The notes beneath the pieces were generated by a model. It saw only the letters and a list, made by a program, of their open reading frames with translations. It was not told where the DNA came from and made no database searches. 41,327 bases of DNA from Phormidesmis priestleyi BC1401 (GTDB taxonomy: Bacteria; Cyanobacteriota; Cyanobacteriia; Leptolyngbyales; Leptolyngbyaceae): assembly GCF_001650195.1 (NCBI RefSeq), contig NZ_LXYR01000046.1:1-41327 (forward strand). Direction: 5' to 3'. This document shows positions 2,289-10,865 of the stretch, piece by piece (the first letter of the stretch is position 1; each line of letters begins with the position of its first letter). A program made the position numbers and the translations under genes.

Positions 2289-2359
2289 AACACCGCAAAT
2301 TTTCTTGTGTAATAAATCCTTTGTTTGGCTAGTTCTTACACAAGAAAATTTGCGATGTT
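2289..2359. repeat. CTTGTGTAA inverted-repeat pair 1
   Basis: A 19-base arm CGCAAATTTTCTTGTGTAA (2294-2312) is perfectly inverted at 2336-2354 across a 23-base spacer. With one mismatch the arms extend to 2289 and 2359. The arm core CTTGTGTAA recurs as inverted pairs at 7621-7662, 7833-7876 (CTTGTGT) and 7956-8001. This copy lies at the opposite edge of the replication module from the other three. It may be a protein-binding site, a recombination site or an RNA hairpin; the sequence does not decide. Confidence 0.8.
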
Positions 2360-2764: not shown

Positions 2765-4423
2765 TCAGCCGCGCTGGCACACTTCTGAACTCCTAGCGGG
2801 ATGGAATTGGAGATAGAACCAAGCTGTCGCTTCTGCCACCAAAATGGGATCGCCAGACTCCAAGAATTGTTGCATTCGTGCCAGTTGCTTCAAGCTGCGC
2901 GGCTGCGTTTGCGGTTGTGCCATTTGAATGGCTTCTTGATGCACAGCTTGCCATGCATCATCGCTGATCAACAACGCTTCAGGAATCACAGGAGTGTCAC
3001 GAACCGAATCGGTTTTCTCTACAGACTGATGCTCATCCGTTGATGGTTGGATAGACCCTTTAGAATTGCTAGAACCATCACTAGAAGTATCATTACCGCC
3101 ATTACCAGGTAATAAGCTTGGATGACATCTAGGCTCTATTGTAAGACAGACTTCCTCACTGATGCTATTTGTCTCACAGTCTTCAATCCTCAAATAGTTA
3201 GGATGCCAGAGATCTTTATGGCGATACAGTGATCCTCCGCCAATTCGATAGTCGAGCAAAAGTTTAAATCGGTGAGTTGCAGAACTAGGAAGTATTCCTT
3301 TCTCAAGCAAGTCCACGATCGCGCTTCTGATCTTTTCTCTAGCAGACTTCGACTGCTGCTCATTCCAATCTGGTAGGTTCTTGATCGGACTCTCCATTTC
3401 CTTCGACTGAGCTTTGTATTTCCCTAAAGCACTCCCATAGTGAAAGTAGTGACTTGACTCAACACATCGCGCCCATTCCTCCGCTCGATGATCAATCTCA
3501 TGTTGGTGCCTACACCAGTCTGAGTATCCCGGCAGTGATTTTGCTACTCGCACCACTTCGTTTACTAAGGCTGCTCCTGTGAGAGGAGTCCCACTGGTCA
3601 GGATGTGATGAAAGACATACGATCGCATCGTGATGCGTCCCAACAGTCGATTGGTTTGTCCGGCACCCGTCCAGCCTATCTCGACTTCAGCATTCAGATC
3701 GTTGAGGTATTTGTCTGCTTTACCCGAAATGCGAAACGGATGTCGTTTGAATTGTTTGATGACACGCCTGATGGTCTTCGCGTTAACATCATTGCGCGAT
3801 TTCACAACGTTCCAGTAACGCAGAAAGGTGTGACGATCACTCCAGACGGGCTGAAAGTCATCATCGAGCAGATAGGAGCCAATCTGAAGCGGGAGCCGAT
3901 GCGCGTTGAACAAGCTAAAGGTGCCGTCACCGCGATAGGGTTTAGGGTTGGGAAAGATTTCTAGCTGTCCTGGTTTAAGAATAAATCCTGCGTTTTCGAG
4001 CAAGGTTGAAATGGCGATCGACAGTTGCCAAGAGCTTTGAGAGTCTTCAAACGGCAAATAGAGATGAATCCCCCTGCTATAGCTCGACGTGCAGGCAAGG
4101 TAGCTGGCGATGCCCATCGGTTCTAAAGCAGCGATGATTCGCTGGATGGCGAATGGGTCACGTTGAGGGTGATACAGACTTCCTGCGTCGATATCGAGCA
4201 GGCTGTACTGGGTTTTAGAACCAAAGCGCACCCCATAGAGCGTGCTGCCTTGATCGATGAGGCGATCGCTGAGAGGATAGCGTCGCTCAGTCTGCCACTC
4301 AACAGTTTCTCCAAAATTGGAGTGATTTGCCCAAATAAAATCGTACCGATGGGGAAAGAGGGTAAGAAATTCTTCACGTTGGTCGCGGACATTCTCAAAA
4401 AGCACTTTATCGAGGTCTCTCAT
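2765..4423 (-). CDS. Primase-like (archaeo-eukaryotic primase fold) replication protein
   Basis: The product is 552 aa. It has features of the archaeo-eukaryotic primase/PrimPol superfamily. LLDIDAG carries a DxD metal pair (D77, D79), SRGIHLYLPF carries the SxH-type motif (H120), and LEIFP follows at 154-158, which fits the third motif region. The middle is helical; the region around residues 365-430 (REKIRSAIVDLLEKGIL, then YRIGGGSLYRHKDLW) resembles a winged-helix segment. A Ser/Asn-rich linker precedes the C-terminus. Such proteins are common on cyanobacterial plasmids and probably prime or start replication. It diverges from the candidate initiator at 5629 across the probable origin. The superfamily call is from motifs only; the exact enzymatic activity is inferred. 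Confidence 0.7.
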   Translation of the reverse strand: MRDLDKVLFENVRDQREEFLTLFPHRYDFIWANHSNFGETVEWQTERRYPLSDRLIDQGSTLYGVRFGSKTQYSLLDIDAGSLYHPQRDPFAIQRIIAALEPMGIASYLACTSSYSRGIHLYLPFEDSQSSWQLSIAISTLLENAGFILKPGQLEIFPNPKPYRGDGTFSLFNAHRLPLQIGSYLLDDDFQPVWSDRHTFLRYWNVVKSRNDVNAKTIRRVIKQFKRHPFRISGKADKYLNDLNAEVEIGWTGAGQTNRLLGRITMRSYVFHHILTSGTPLTGAALVNEVVRVAKSLPGYSDWCRHQHEIDHRAEEWARCVESSHYFHYGSALGKYKAQSKEMESPIKNLPDWNEQQSKSAREKIRSAIVDLLEKGILPSSATHRFKLLLDYRIGGGSLYRHKDLWHPNYLRIEDCETNSISEEVCLTIEPRCHPSLLPGNGGNDTSSDGSSNSKGSIQPSTDEHQSVEKTDSVRDTPVIPEALLISDDAWQAVHQEAIQMAQPQTQPRSLKQLARMQQFLESGDPILVAEATAWFYLQFHPARSSEVCQRG

Positions 4424-5628: not shown

Positions 5629-7578
5629 ATGTATACTGCTTTGACGTACATGGGCTTTAACGGGACTCCTGTGACTCAAATCAAAGACATTGCTTCCGAT
5701 CCATCTCTTTTGACGAACCTACCTTCATCTGATCCTGTGCTGGTTTCATCGGATCAATTCCGAGTGCAGTCCTATGTCACAAAGTTGAAAGGGAGTAAGT
5801 CATTCTTGAACCTGGTGCTGGTTAATGTCGCGATGGGAATTAACCAGTTCAAACTGCATCTGGCACAAACACAGTCAAACGATGATGTCGATGTGATCAA
5901 TCTCTATGACGAGACCGAAAAGATCGGCGCTTTGCATAAGCAGACCATGCTGCGACTTGAGCGGAGGTTTCGCTCAGTGTTGAAAACGGATGAGTTTTGG
6001 AATCAAACGGCGACCTGGATCTTAGTGCGACTTGAGCAGTGGCAACAAGAGAGTCTTATGCCGTCGGATTGCTCTGTGGTCGGAATGCTATCGGTTAAAT
6101 CTGGGAGCAACCCAGCCCACAGTGATGAGTGGCGCGAGTCTTTGGTGACGAGTGCCTGTGCCTTTCACACAGCTAGCCAGTGGCTTCGGCATCTAGACTT
6201 ATCAGGATACAGCGCTGCCGAGATTGATAAGCTATTAGGGATTAAGTCTCTTAATGCTGCGGCAACACGAGAACCTCTGTTTCAGGATACAGAGATTGAG
6301 CGGATTGCTACTGGCTACCCAATTCTCACAGGCGCTCAAGCGCTTATTAATTCTCAGTGGGAAGATGGAGAATATCCCTATTGGAAGAAACTGGTTGGAG
6401 AAGGGTTTATTCAGCACCAAATCGTGCGCCAAACCCCTTCAAACCAACAGATTGAACTGGTGCCCGGTAAAGCGGCATGGGAAATTATTCAGCAGTTTGG
6501 TCCTGAAGCAGCCTATGTCTTTTTAATCTTCTCCTCGTATGCCACTGATTCAGAGGAACCTTGGGCGGAGCAAATTCGATTGAAAGGGACTGATTTGATT
6601 CGGCTCTTTGGTTGGGATAAGCGGACTGACATCACGATCGCTCAAAAGCTCAAGAAGATCGGGCATTTGGTAGAGCTAGTCTGTAGCCTTTCCGTTTTGG
6701 TGAGTAATATCAACATTGGCGCAAAGCGTTACAACGTTGAGCGAGGTGCAATGTGGAATTTAGAGGGTCTAGGGTATGCGGGTCAGCTAGCGCTGACGAT
6801 GGATCTCAAGAAACTTGACTCTCCGACCTATGAAGCGGGAGAACCCGATGAGCTATATATCAAAGTACGTCCTGGTGTTTGGACGGAAAAGTTTCTAAAT
6901 GCAGGTGACATCCATGCAAAGGAGGCGCTGTTTCAATATGGCTATTTAGCGAAAAGCACGCTTCAAATCAATCCCTACCGTCAACGATTAGCTTCAAAAC
7001 TTGCCATTTTTCTGACTATTATGAGTCGGATTCGAGAGGATGGTCGCTATGAGGTGCGAACCTTGCTAGAGCGACTAGAGCCGAAAGAACTTTTGGAGGG
7101 AGTTCAGGACGATCGCTTACGCCGCGTGAAATTGATCAATCAATGGGATAGCGCTCTGTTGACTCTTAAAGAACTGGGATGGGAAATCGATTTTGATCAG
7201 GCAACTTATCCAGAGAGCATCCGACCGGATTGGTCGGTGAGTGATGATTTTGATTCTGGATATCGCCCCCGCAACTGGCTAGCAACCTGGCTCAAAGCGA
7301 TCGTGATTATCAAGCCCTCTGTGAAAATTCAGGAAAAGCTAGGCGGTCAGGCACCTGTAGCACTGAAGCCTGCGCGGGTGCCTATTCAAACGTCTCTGCT
7401 AACAGGTGATGCAATTCAAGCAGCGCTTGACGTGAAAGGTATGACCAAAGCGCAACTAGCAGATACATTAAAGGTTGACCGATCGTTAGTCACTCGCTGG
7501 CTTAAAGGGCAAAGAACAATTCAGCCGAAACATCAGGCTCAAATTAAAGCGCTGCTAGGAGAGCTTGATAAAAGCTGA
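5629..7578 (+). CDS. Candidate plasmid replication initiator with C-terminal HTH
   Basis: The product is 649 aa. I do not recognise a named domain in the first 580 residues, which look like a soluble, mostly helical protein. The last 60 residues form a Cro/CI-type helix-turn-helix: MTKAQLADTLKVDRSLVTRW is a clear HTH, with WLKGQRTI as the following turn. It is encoded beside iterated motifs and divergent from a primase-like gene, which fits a replication initiator or copy-number controller. No good ribosome-binding site precedes the ATG at 5629. A second in-frame ATG at 5650 (MGFNGTPV) is possible. The initiator role is inferred from context. Confidence 0.6.
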   Translation: MYTALTYMGFNGTPVTQIKDIASDPSLLTNLPSSDPVLVSSDQFRVQSYVTKLKGSKSFLNLVLVNVAMGINQFKLHLAQTQSNDDVDVINLYDETEKIGALHKQTMLRLERRFRSVLKTDEFWNQTATWILVRLEQWQQESLMPSDCSVVGMLSVKSGSNPAHSDEWRESLVTSACAFHTASQWLRHLDLSGYSAAEIDKLLGIKSLNAAATREPLFQDTEIERIATGYPILTGAQALINSQWEDGEYPYWKKLVGEGFIQHQIVRQTPSNQQIELVPGKAAWEIIQQFGPEAAYVFLIFSSYATDSEEPWAEQIRLKGTDLIRLFGWDKRTDITIAQKLKKIGHLVELVCSLSVLVSNINIGAKRYNVERGAMWNLEGLGYAGQLALTMDLKKLDSPTYEAGEPDELYIKVRPGVWTEKFLNAGDIHAKEALFQYGYLAKSTLQINPYRQRLASKLAIFLTIMSRIREDGRYEVRTLLERLEPKELLEGVQDDRLRRVKLINQWDSALLTLKELGWEIDFDQATYPESIRPDWSVSDDFDSGYRPRNWLATWLKAIVIIKPSVKIQEKLGGQAPVALKPARVPIQTSLLTGDAIQAALDVKGMTKAQLADTLKVDRSLVTRWLKGQRTIQPKHQAQIKALLGELDKS

Positions 7579-7620
7579 GGTTCATTGCGAAATCAAACAA
7601 CTGTATTAGATTAAATTTTT

Positions 7621-7662
7621 CTTGTGTAAGAGATCGTGAAAAGACTCATTATATTACACAAG
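7621..7662. repeat. CTTGTGTAA inverted-repeat pair 2
   Basis: Nine-base arms CTTGTGTAA and TTACACAAG are separated by 24 bases. The pair lies 43 bases after the rep stop codon and could also act as a hairpin at the end of the rep transcript. Confidence 0.75.
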
Positions 7663-7832
7663 ATACTGAATCTTTCCTTTTTGCAACTGAAGTCAAAGGG
7701 TTGAAAAATGGGCTGTGACTGCGACTGGAGCCAGCAAAAGGAGTTAGGCTACGCTATGAGTTGAGGTAGAGCAAATCGTGCAAGTCCGATCGTGACAGTG
7801 TAAATTCTATTCGTCAGGACTGGCATTCAATT

Positions 7833-7876
7833 TTCTTGTGTGAACTGGGTGCTGTTTCGCAAGACCTACACAAGAA
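7833..7876. repeat. CTTGTGTAA inverted-repeat pair 3
   Basis: TTCTTGTGT is inverted as ACACAAGAA across 26 bases. The arms differ from the other pairs just inside this core (TGA and CCT in place of AA and TT), so this copy is the most diverged. Confidence 0.7.
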
Positions 7877-7955
7877 TCGAACGCTCTATTGAGTTTTCTA
7901 TATCTCGTCAAGGATCGACCGCCGTATCAATACGGCTGACTGAAAGCTGTGAGAC

Positions 7956-8001
7956 TTCTTGTGTAATCAGCGGTAGAATGAAACGGCTTATTACACAAGA
8001 A
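7956..8001. repeat. CTTGTGTAA inverted-repeat pair 4, abutting a start codon
   Basis: Twelve-base arms TTCTTGTGTAAT and ATTACACAAGAA enclose 22 bases. The right arm supplies the A-rich sequence directly before the ATG at 8005, where a ribosome-binding site would be. Pairing of the arms in RNA would hide that region. Confidence 0.75.
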
Positions 8002-8004
8002 AAA

Positions 8005-8376
8005 ATGCCGAGACGATCGTCGATCAGTTCGCTTCAGACCTCTATTTATTGCCTCAGTGTAGATGAACAGAAGCAGCTTCACGAATGGTTGGGCAAGCAC
8101 TTGGAGGAACAAGCGTTTGCGGAGGTTGGAGTTCACAGAAGTGAGGCAGAACCCCGCAATTACGAAGGCAGAACTTACGTTCTTCAGAAGAGACGCTGTG
8201 GTAAGCTTCACTGCTCATGTATGGACGGAGAGATTTTAGAAGTTGGGCATGGACCGTATTGGTATGCTTATTGGAACGATAATGGAAAAACCAAAAATAA
8301 GTACGTCGGCAAGCGTGCGCCGTGGCAGAACAATCAATTGAAGAAGACTTCATGGAACCAGACAAAAGATACTTGA
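8005..8376 (+). CDS. DUF6788-like small cysteine-rich protein
   Basis: The product is 123 aa. The C-terminal half carries KRRCGKLHCSC, then GHGPYWYAYWNDNGKTKNKYVGK, a pattern matching the DUF6788-type family found on cyanobacterial and other bacterial mobile DNA (recognised from memory, not searched). The three closely spaced Cys plus following His could bind a metal. The N-terminal half is polar and helical (SVDEQKQLHEWLGKHLEEQAF). The frame is open upstream to 7840, but that part is made of the inverted repeats; the ATG at 8005 directly after repeat pair 4 is preferred. The function of the family is unknown. Proximity suggests that the protein acts on, or is controlled by, the repeats. Confidence 0.65.
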   Translation: MPRRSSISSLQTSIYCLSVDEQKQLHEWLGKHLEEQAFAEVGVHRSEAEPRNYEGRTYVLQKRRCGKLHCSCMDGEILEVGHGPYWYAYWNDNGKTKNKYVGKRAPWQNNQLKKTSWNQTKDT

Positions 8377-8923: not shown

Positions 8924-9006
8924 ACCAAACCCACAAGCGCGAATACCAGTATTCGCGCTTGTGGGTTTGGTGAAGCAGGGGAAGTGTGAATACCAGTATT
9001 CACGCT
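8924..9006. promoter_or_regulatory. Candidate parS/centromere: two palindromes sharing GAATACCAGTATTC
   Basis: A 48-bp palindrome (8924-8971) has perfect 23-bp arms around a CA centre. A second, 24-bp palindrome (8983-9006, one mismatch) has the same CA centre. Both share GAATACCAGTATTC flanked by GC or GT and their complements. Centres are 47 bases apart. A further half-site GTATTC lies at 8916-8921. The pair sits about 200 bases upstream of parA, where plasmid parS or parA operator sites are commonly found. ParB binding is inferred. Confidence 0.6.
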
Positions 9007-9199: not shown

Positions 9200-9883
9200 A
9201 TGACCGTCCTAACTGCGTCCCAAAAGAAAACTTTCGCTAAACCATCTGTTTCTCAACCCATCAAACCTCTGTTGATCTCAATTCTGAATCAAAAAGGAGG
9301 TGTTGGAAAAACCACGATCGCGGTGAATCTCTCCTACGCGCTAGCGAAACGCGGCATTGAGACAATTTTAATCGATGGAGACCCAAACCGCAGTACCTTA
9401 GTCGGGGCACGATCGATTGTTTATAGTGAAAGCGTCCCCCTGCGAGTCATGAGCGAAACCGCCTCGGTCGGGCAAACTGGAAACTGTCGCCACTTCTTCA
9501 TTGACACAAAAGCCCGACCAGAACCCCTTGATCTTGAAGAGATTGTACATCGCTCTACCTTGATTCTGATTCCTAGCTCAACGAAGCAGGATGAGCTGCG
9601 CGTGACCTGTTCTACGGTAAAACTTTTAGATTCCGTGAGCAGTAAAAAGCACCGAGTGGTGCTGAACCGCATTCATCCAAACACTGGGGAGGAAACGCTA
9701 TCAGCGTTCAAATCAGGATTGAGATCGCAGGGCATTCCGGTGTTTGAATCTGTGATTCGAGACTATGCAGTTTATGATGAAGCTTTTGGTCGAGGGCTAT
9801 CCGTTAGTCAACTTCGAGGCAAGACGGTCGAAAAAGCCTGGTCAGATATTCAGCAACTGCTAGAGGAGATTCTCAATGGCTAA
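9200..9883 (+). CDS. parA: ParA-type partition ATPase
   Basis: The product is 227 aa. It has the deviant Walker A box [10 protein letters not shown] (about residues 30-39) typical of ParA/Soj ATPases, a Walker A' segment [11 protein letters not shown], and [12 protein letters not shown] as the Walker B region. ParA uses ATP-dependent non-specific DNA binding to position plasmid or chromosome copies with ParB. There is no N-terminal HTH, as in type Ib ParA, so operator binding may rest with ParB. The stop codon overlaps the parB start by eight bases, indicating translational coupling. The candidate parS lies upstream. Confidence 0.92.
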
Positions 9884-10865
9884 TCGGCTTGCAGCGGCTC
9901 TTCAAAACATCGGCTCAATGATGCCTACCGCAGATCTAGACAACTTGCCTGCTCCAAAAACTGAGCAGGGCAGGGAAGTCGTTGTTCGATTGCAGCTATC
10001 TGAGATCGAAATTAGCGATCGAGTTCGGCAATCTCATGATGAAGCATTGGTTCGCTCCTTTGTTGAGACATTCCGCACCTCTGGCTTTCGAGGCGTTCTT
10101 TGGGTGCGTCCGACCAACGCGGGACGCTATAGACTGATTGCGGGTGGAACTCGCTATTTGGCGTGTCAACAGGCAAAGATTGAATATGTCAACGCTTTAG
10201 TCTTCGAGGTGGACGCAGTTGAAGCCCTAGATCTTGAGCTTGAGGAAAACCTTAAGCGGCGAGACTTTAATGATTTAGAAACCGTTCACGGCATTTTGCG
10301 TTCGCTAGAGCTTGAGTTGTCACTGTCTCGCGAGCAAATCATTGTCCTGTTTAGCTGGAACTCGCGAAATCGCCAACCCGATGGCACCCATCGCTCTCCT
10401 CGGAAAGACAGCGTGCTGGCTGAGATCCCCTTAGAACAGCTTGAAGCCTACTGGTCAATCATTAAGCTCAAGTTTGAGCGGTTAGGTCGCTACAGCCCTG
10501 AAGGATTTCGGGTTAACTTTTTGCCCCTGATTAACCTGCCCGAATCGGTTCAGAGTGCGATTAGGCAGGGGCACTTAGAAGGTTCAAAAGCACGTTTATT
10601 TGCCCGAATCACCGACGACGAAATGCGGGATACCTTGCTCGATCAAGCCATTGCAGACGATTGGTCACGGGATCAAATTACAGAAGCCGTCAAAAGCTGG
10701 GTTGGTAACCACGCTCCGAAAATCATAAACCAATCTGAAGAAGTACAGTTCTCAAGCCGCGTCAAATCAGTTTTAAAGCGCCTCTCAAAAGCGTCTTTGA
10801 CTGGACGATCTCGCACAAAAGCAGAACGTCTCTTGAAGGAACTAGAGTCGCTGTTAGAGTCATAA
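9876..10865 (+). CDS. parB: ParB-type partition protein
   Basis: The product is 329 aa. The ParB/Srx N-terminal domain is visible: [17 protein letters not shown] (the family GERR box here reads GGTRY) and [17 protein letters not shown] central helical region (residues ~140-180) includes [13 protein letters not shown], an HTH-like KorB/ParB segment. The C-terminal part ends in a basic then acidic helix ([19 protein letters not shown]) suited to dimerisation. The gene starts inside parA. Partner site and ATPase are present, so the partition cassette looks complete. The GGTRY variant of the CTP-binding motif is notable, but I cannot judge its effect. Confidence 0.88.

Follow-up and report, generated by a model that had tools for sequence, protein, structure and literature searches.

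DUF6788 (PF20586) is likely to be a family of autoregulated proteins, predicted to bind specific DNA sequences at paired half-sites and at extra sites scattered elsewhere, in both bacteria and archaea. The starting material was a stretch of 41,327 bp from Phormidesmis priestleyi BC1401 (contig NZ_LXYR01000046.1; hereafter the window), in which inverted pairs of the arm word CTTGTGTAA precede a DUF6788 gene. The protein probably controls itself, because the same kind of mirrored pair usually stands just before the gene; the sequences show directly that the pairs exist, that they go with the gene in two domains of life and that arm type agrees with protein clade. Of the three options that a preliminary description of the window had offered for the pairs, a self-controlled protein/DNA site is favoured here, an RNA hairpin is disfavoured, and recombination sites gained little support.

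Features of the window

The following features are referred to in the text (strand given where one applies):

2304..2344, no strand: distal pair, offset 32, outside the larger ORFs
5629..7578, + strand: upstream neighbour of 649 aa, rep-like according to the preliminary description; weak C-terminal HTH match
7621..7662, no strand: first pair, offset 33, 42 bases beyond the rep-like stop codon
7835..7874, no strand: second pair, one mismatch per arm, offset 31
7958..7999, no strand: start-proximal inverted pair, offset 33
7974..7979, + strand: TAGAAT, -10-like candidate promoter inside the spacer, 31 bases before the ATG (suggestive only)
8005..8376, + strand: DUF6788 protein of 123 aa (Pfam PF20586 match), with the hairpin GPYWYAYWNDNGKTKNKYVGK
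9200..9883, + strand: parA, downstream neighbour
9876..10865, + strand: parB, downstream neighbour

The preliminary description was correct in that four inverted CTTGTGTAA pairs are present in the contig (at 2304, 7621, 7835 and 7958), three of them ahead of the DUF6788 gene, and in that the final 11-base arm ends at 8001, three bases 5' of the ATG at 8005. The arms CTTGTGTAA/TTACACAAG are located at 2304/2336, 7621/7654 and 7958/7991, and the arms at 7835/7866 contain one mismatch each. The start-to-start offsets are 32 (2304), 33 (7621), 33 (7958) and 31 (7835), and the spacers between 9-base arms comprise 23, 24, 24 and 22 bases, respectively. These spacers had been called unrelated; their near-constant length stands, but their content is not wholly unrelated, as many of the 22-24-base cyanobacterial spacers have in common an A-rich centre between runs of G and C (judged by eye, with no statistic). 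Furthermore, the tenth base is common to both arms in 20 of 28 pairs, compared with 11.5 by permutation. With at most one mismatch, the single arm word occurs 10 times in the window against 7.4 expected by chance, and is thus not rarer than chance; the exact pair occurs three times in the 5.55-Mb genome, each time inside the window, and not at all in the backward-read control. The arms of the distal pair extend to 30 bases at 90% complementarity (extended stem 2286-2362), and this pair aligns with a distal pair of a related locus (L112) with 79% over 63 bp.

The protein encoded at 8005-8376 is the sole DUF6788 relative found in the host genome at E up to 0.01; it scores above the curated Pfam cut-off (33.4 bits versus 27.2), and it has no Pfam match other than DUF6788, i.e. 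none to a recombinase family. The conserved C, C, C, H and HGPYxY core, invariant in 23 cyanobacterial proteins, is present, and C65, C70, C72 and H82 are predicted as probable zinc ligands. Fold models (mean pLDDT 72.8 for the first and 84.9 for the second) place two N-terminal helices ahead of a beta-sheet with C-x4-C-x-C...H and GPYxY. The Pfam line for DUF6788 gives no described function, and no paper naming DUF6788 or PF20586 was found in the literature searched; texts found with the arm words look unrelated from titles and abstract starts, and nothing on related topics was judged relevant from titles.

Neighbour clustering yielded no universal partner gene beside DUF6788. The 649-aa rep-like protein is not consistently found beside the pairs: a relative adjoins DUF6788 in L112/L005, and other genes are present in L006. 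Upstream of parA, at 8924-9006, lies a perfect 23-base inverted repeat whose core recurs 47 bases on (GAATACCAGTATTC palindromes), a candidate centromere of the parAB system. The minus strand encodes at 2765-4423 a 552-aa protein without Pfam match, which may be a replication protein because a relative of it (assigned by eye; L007, 2323-3996) directly precedes DUF6788 on NIES-3755 plasmid 3.

Co-occurrence in Cyanobacteria

Two samples were searched, 386 genomes drawn over the cyanobacterial phylum and 42 genomes of the host order, and neither outcome that, by the preliminary description, would refute the link between pair and gene was obtained. The exact pair is not widespread without the gene: it was found in two of the 386 genomes, the same two that contain DUF6788. 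In the host order, DUF6788 is present in 15 genomes with 28 matches, one of them under the curated cut-off; this number is a lower bound, as decayed copies in L119 and L120 were missed and were found by tblastn. The exact CTTGTGTAA pair is present in eight of the 42 genomes and the exact CTTATGTAC pair in six, together 11, and DUF6788 is present in 10 of these 11 versus 5 of the 31 others (Fisher 1.9e-5, a value that ignores kinship). The exception, G413, contains a pair and no DUF6788 match. Five genomes have DUF6788 and neither exact pair: three (G390, G392, G393) carry the arm word CTTGTACTA, one (G420) has CTTATGTAC arms at offset 51, beyond the pattern, and in the fifth, G386 (L017), no pair was seen near DUF6788.

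Nor are the DUF6788 genes of the host order consistently without a pair. Within 440 bp upstream and 500 bp downstream, the pair rule detected a pair at 24 of the 28 matches, upstream at 21, downstream at eight and on both sides at five, compared with 4 of 106 control stretches of the same loci (440 bp each). The four matches without a pair by this rule are L017, L031, L025, for which a pair is present with arms too different for the rule, and L041, a decayed copy; pairs downstream only are found at L024, L029 and L037. Two pairs located away from the 28 matches (G408:C173 and G406:C97; L119, L120) adjoin the start of decayed copies of the gene.

Several side observations were made at these loci. 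Decayed DUF6788 copies that keep their upstream arms were found in L119, L120, L020, L034, L040 and L041, as if the sites outlive the gene. Locus L122 (G413:C115:9711-9751) is a perfect CTTGTGTAA pair in a congeneric genome that lacks any DUF6788 match. When L115 is compared with L120, and the window with L112, the break in homology falls at the outer arm of the start-proximal pair; the non-homologous stretch of the window is filled by the two extra pairs. Beside the outermost inverted pair of the CTTATGTAC loci L107, L125, L126, L128 and L129 are arrays of arms with a near-constant step of 69-71 bp.

Two scans of viral contigs and a search of 50,697 phage records (E up to 0.01) detected no DUF6788 relative. 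Among viral sequences, 21 stretches contain the exact CTTGTGTAA pair at offsets of 20-48, several of these stretches being near-identical to each other, and tblastn revealed no DUF6788 relative encoded in these stretches; such pairs without the gene weigh against exclusiveness, and they are taken as unrelated.

Haloarchaeal loci

DUF6788 genes are found on cyanobacterial plasmids and in haloarchaea; two Chloroflexota genes were also found, and neither of these two loci has a pair. In nine haloarchaeal plasmid records of PLSDB, a pair is located just ahead of the start codon in all nine (one place per record was read, and two records hold more places). Seven of these places conform to the exact 8-base rule and two (L131, L136) have one mismatch between the arms; the arm words are CCTTGTGTAACA, CCTTATGTA, CTTATGTAA, CCTTGTGCAACA and CCTTGTACAACA.

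An independent set of haloarchaeal loci was fetched by protein alone. Scanning of genome contigs gave no match with the window protein as query and 64 loci with the haloarchaeal alignment as query, of which four were dropped (N-terminus or upstream DNA missing) and 60 evaluated. A CTTRTRY pair at offsets of 36-40 is present within 150 bp upstream in 55 of these 60 loci, many of which are close relatives (56 distinct sequences among the 60 upstream regions; the 55 spacers thin to 23). No pair was found in 50 rounds of shuffled stretches, and other stretches of the same loci contain a pair in 17 of 1,936 cases, nine of these just 3' of DUF6788. Among the five misses, an inverted pair at a similar position is spelled differently (CTTACCWAAC, CTTAACCAAGG) in three (L186, L201, L190); a single arm was seen at L187 and none at L191. 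In 24 loci of L140-L172 and L192, the same convergent protein is encoded downstream of DUF6788; by eye, it is the TRAM-domain protein annotated in L134 and L136.

Arm words and protein clades

Four arm words are found upstream of cyanobacterial DUF6788 genes, i.e. CTTGTGTAAY, CTTATGTACA, CTTATGTAAG and CTTGTACTA. Differences between arm words correlate with protein distance (r 0.65 for 19 cyanobacterial loci, r 0.59 for 52 haloarchaeal loci; reached by 0 of 5,000 permutations), a correlation that is confounded by kinship. It also favours the regular cases, because 12 of 64 haloarchaeal loci and 9 of 28 cyanobacterial matches were left out (the protein was incomplete or decayed, or the arms were missing or did not fit the rule). 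Paralogues of different clades within one genome have each their own arm word in G403, G404, G408 and G409; in G185, G390 and G406, two counted paralogues have the same arm type.

Distal pairs

Nineteen haloarchaeal genomes, chosen as holders of DUF6788, were scanned for the exact CTTATGTA pair with offsets of 32-42 allowed. The pair was found in 18 of the 19 genomes, with 64 pairs (gene-side pairs and some repeated copies included) at offsets of 34-40, and the backward control was zero in all 19. Within 20 hand-picked stretches that hold 22 distal pairs, no DUF6788 relative was detected. Relative to mechanical ORFs of at least 60 aa, many of which are not genes in GC-rich haloarchaeal DNA, 12 of these 22 pairs are outside, three partly overlapping and seven inside. 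Annotated plasmid stretches of Leptolyngbya contain 16 clusters of exact arms; 15 of these fall between genes, in some cases convergent ones, according to a PLSDB gene table that is incomplete. As the distal pairs are scattered and often intergenic, the sites cannot be operators of the DUF6788 gene alone, and since many are not at gene starts, autoregulation alone leaves them unexplained. Candidate roles for the distal sites are copy control, partition, nucleoid organisation and silencing.

Proposed mode of action

We infer that DUF6788 itself is the binder of the arms, with each protein recognising one half-site CTTRTRY(AA) of about 10 bp in double-stranded DNA. Two inverted half-sites would flank the promoter of its own gene, and binding at both arms would close the promoter and cover the start region, i.e. 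negative autoregulation. The spacer would carry the promoter and other sequence and hence vary in content, and its length would be set by the distance between the two bound subunits. The scattered pairs would be extra binding sites, through which the same protein would probably help to organise or maintain the DNA in the manner of UBP, a nucleoid-associated protein of Sulfolobus.

Judged from their position, the arms likely flank the promoter. The haloarchaeal pair spans about -48 to -2, a region in which genes with short leaders are expected to have their core promoter; a sharp TATA peak was not found in haloarchaea. Inside the spacer, TANNNT is present 30-34 bases 5' of the ATG in four of the eight CTTGTGTAA-type loci listed (L010, which is the window, L027, L028 and L036). 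The offsets of 28 CTTGTGTAA pairs are only 20-23 (seven pairs) and 29-33 (21 pairs), about two and three helical turns; no general phasing rule is claimed, because 15 CTTATGTAC pairs (18, 25-28, 33-37, 45) and the haloarchaeal pairs (34-40) use other offsets.

Alternative explanations

Perfect inverted repeats beside an ATG, and single sites with long extended stems such as 2286-2362, would also be expected if the arms paired in the mRNA and masked the start codon and ribosome site, whether or not the protein took part, but this explanation is highly improbable. A compensatory stem past the arms is absent save at positions 1 and 2 in the CTTGTGTAA class: outside the arms, complementarity shows no excess over permutation past position 2 (position 2, p 0.0045, CTTGTGTAA pairs), and inside the spacer it is raised only at positions 1-2 of CTTGTGTAA pairs and nowhere in CTTATGTAC pairs. 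Within a haloarchaeal pair the 10-base arms are usually unequal (40 of 55 pairs), mostly at positions 8-10; part of these differences could be G-U pairing in RNA, but at position 9 two T face each other in 14 pairs. There are also tandem direct arms 18-22 bp apart (20-22 bp in the CTTATGTAC class), and some pairs lie between convergent genes. Since the arms are often unequal, complementarity hardly passes beyond them and tandem direct arms exist, independent double-stranded half-sites are favoured over RNA hairpins. Iterons or a centromere, i.e. arms bound by a neighbouring Rep or ParB with DUF6788 as a passenger, are suggested by the location of the window pairs between the rep-like gene and parAB, by several relatives near Rep, ParA or Orc1/Cdc6 genes, and by the tandem arms 20-22 bp apart, which recall iterons. 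An origin of the iteron type would have direct repeats to which the adjacent Rep binds, whereas the window pairs are inverted and the neighbours vary between loci; no Rep or ParB is common to all loci (L006 adjoins other genes), the commonest haloarchaeal neighbours are, by eye, the TRAM-domain protein and a small zinc-ribbon ORF, and the arm word follows the DUF6788 clade. We regard this passenger role as very improbable.

Sites for recombination or transposition, in which DUF6788 would be a partner or a mobile cassette, are quite improbable as well: the protein matches no recombinase family, the proteins keep their own arm type, and homology runs through the upstream pair in six of eight pairwise comparisons between loci, although in the other two (L115/L120 and window/L112) it breaks off no more than 3 bp from an outer arm, and pairs are found on both sides of the gene in 5 of 28 cyanobacterial loci and just 3' of it in 9 of 60 haloarchaeal loci. 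Lastly, some other host regulator, itself widespread, could control DUF6788 with the arms as its operators, which is conceivable in that autoregulation by DUF6788 is what we infer. It is improbable in view of closely similar arm words beside the gene in Cyanobacteria and Halobacteria, with no other shared gene noticed there, and of paralogues of different clades with different arms in one genome.

Comparison with known systems

UBP of Sulfolobus (structures PDB 9efd, 9efe and 9eff) binds double-stranded ucm DNA with beta-hairpins in the major groove, its DNA binding is abolished when K63, K67 and K69 are changed together, and its sites are many, dispersed and enriched between genes (PMC12141716). 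UBP and DUF6788 are both on a scale of about 110 aa (UBP about 110, the window protein 123). The UBP hairpin GKYWYKLEKIGGKLKWIYLGK aligns with DUF6788 GPYWYaYwresgklksrYvGk at E 0.31 (cyanobacterial C-terminal profile), so that, provided the chain is numbered as in PMC12141716, UBP K67 and K69 would correspond to both K of GKxK in the DUF6788 hairpin GPYWY..GKxK..YVGK (K95 and K97 of the window protein). The ucm word ATTATACAAAC of the published oligonucleotides fits, on the other strand, the arm consensus CTTRTRYAAY at nine of 10 positions, with a chance of 0.001-0.006 by base composition (PMC12141716). In contrast to the reading of DUF6788, the UBP gene is essential and a single UBP monomer occupies each site, and paired inverted sites ahead of its own gene are not described in the sections of PMC12141716 consulted; the motif C-x4-C-x-C...H is present in DUF6788, and the word 'zinc' is absent from the UBP text (PMC12141716).

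Matches of DUF6788 profiles to UBP had E values of 0.31-1.1, which is not significant, and two profiles that include haloarchaeal proteins did not list UBP (A2, E up to 1; A5, E up to 10). Foldseek with the second fold model placed three UBP chains in the top rows (E 0.28-0.67, not significant), and with the first model gave weak rows only, with UBP second; the VIA fold comparison placed UBP tenth of 34 rows (53 residues, 28% identity, rmsd 3.1, Z 2.6). Haemagglutinin, H-NS and ribosomal L12 rows, which the profile searches returned as well, were rejected as helix-composition matches, and a viral structure library gave no row at E up to 0.001. Distant homology of DUF6788 and UBP is weakly supported by these comparisons, i.e. 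a good lead and not a proof.

A broader proposal is put forward tentatively: DUF6788 and UBP may belong together in a single, ancient class of beta-hairpin DNA-binding proteins, carried mostly by plasmids across the divide between bacteria and archaea, in which DUF6788 members would autoregulate via paired CTTRTRYAA half-sites and the scattered pairs would organise, silence or partition the replicon. If true, this would be a plasmid-encoded, sequence-specific nucleoid or centromere system working in both domains. A family without known function gains a testable role and a predicted site, conserved jointly in Cyanobacteria and Halobacteria, and may be connected to the recently described Sulfolobus origin-binding protein; the natural pairs of diverged protein and arm word represent a ready set for a recognition code of beta-hairpin DNA binding.

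The iterons of theta plasmids resemble the CTTATGTAC loci in their direct tandem arms 20-22 bp apart, and differ from the window, where the arms form inverted pairs, and in that no Rep gene is common to all loci. CopG, ParG and StbA are small autoregulated plasmid DNA-binding proteins. DUF6788 is unlike these in that only DUF6788 was matched in Pfam and in that recognition is predicted via a beta-hairpin; it is like them, in the reading preferred here, as a small protein that would use its own promoter as operator and several short sites on the plasmid.
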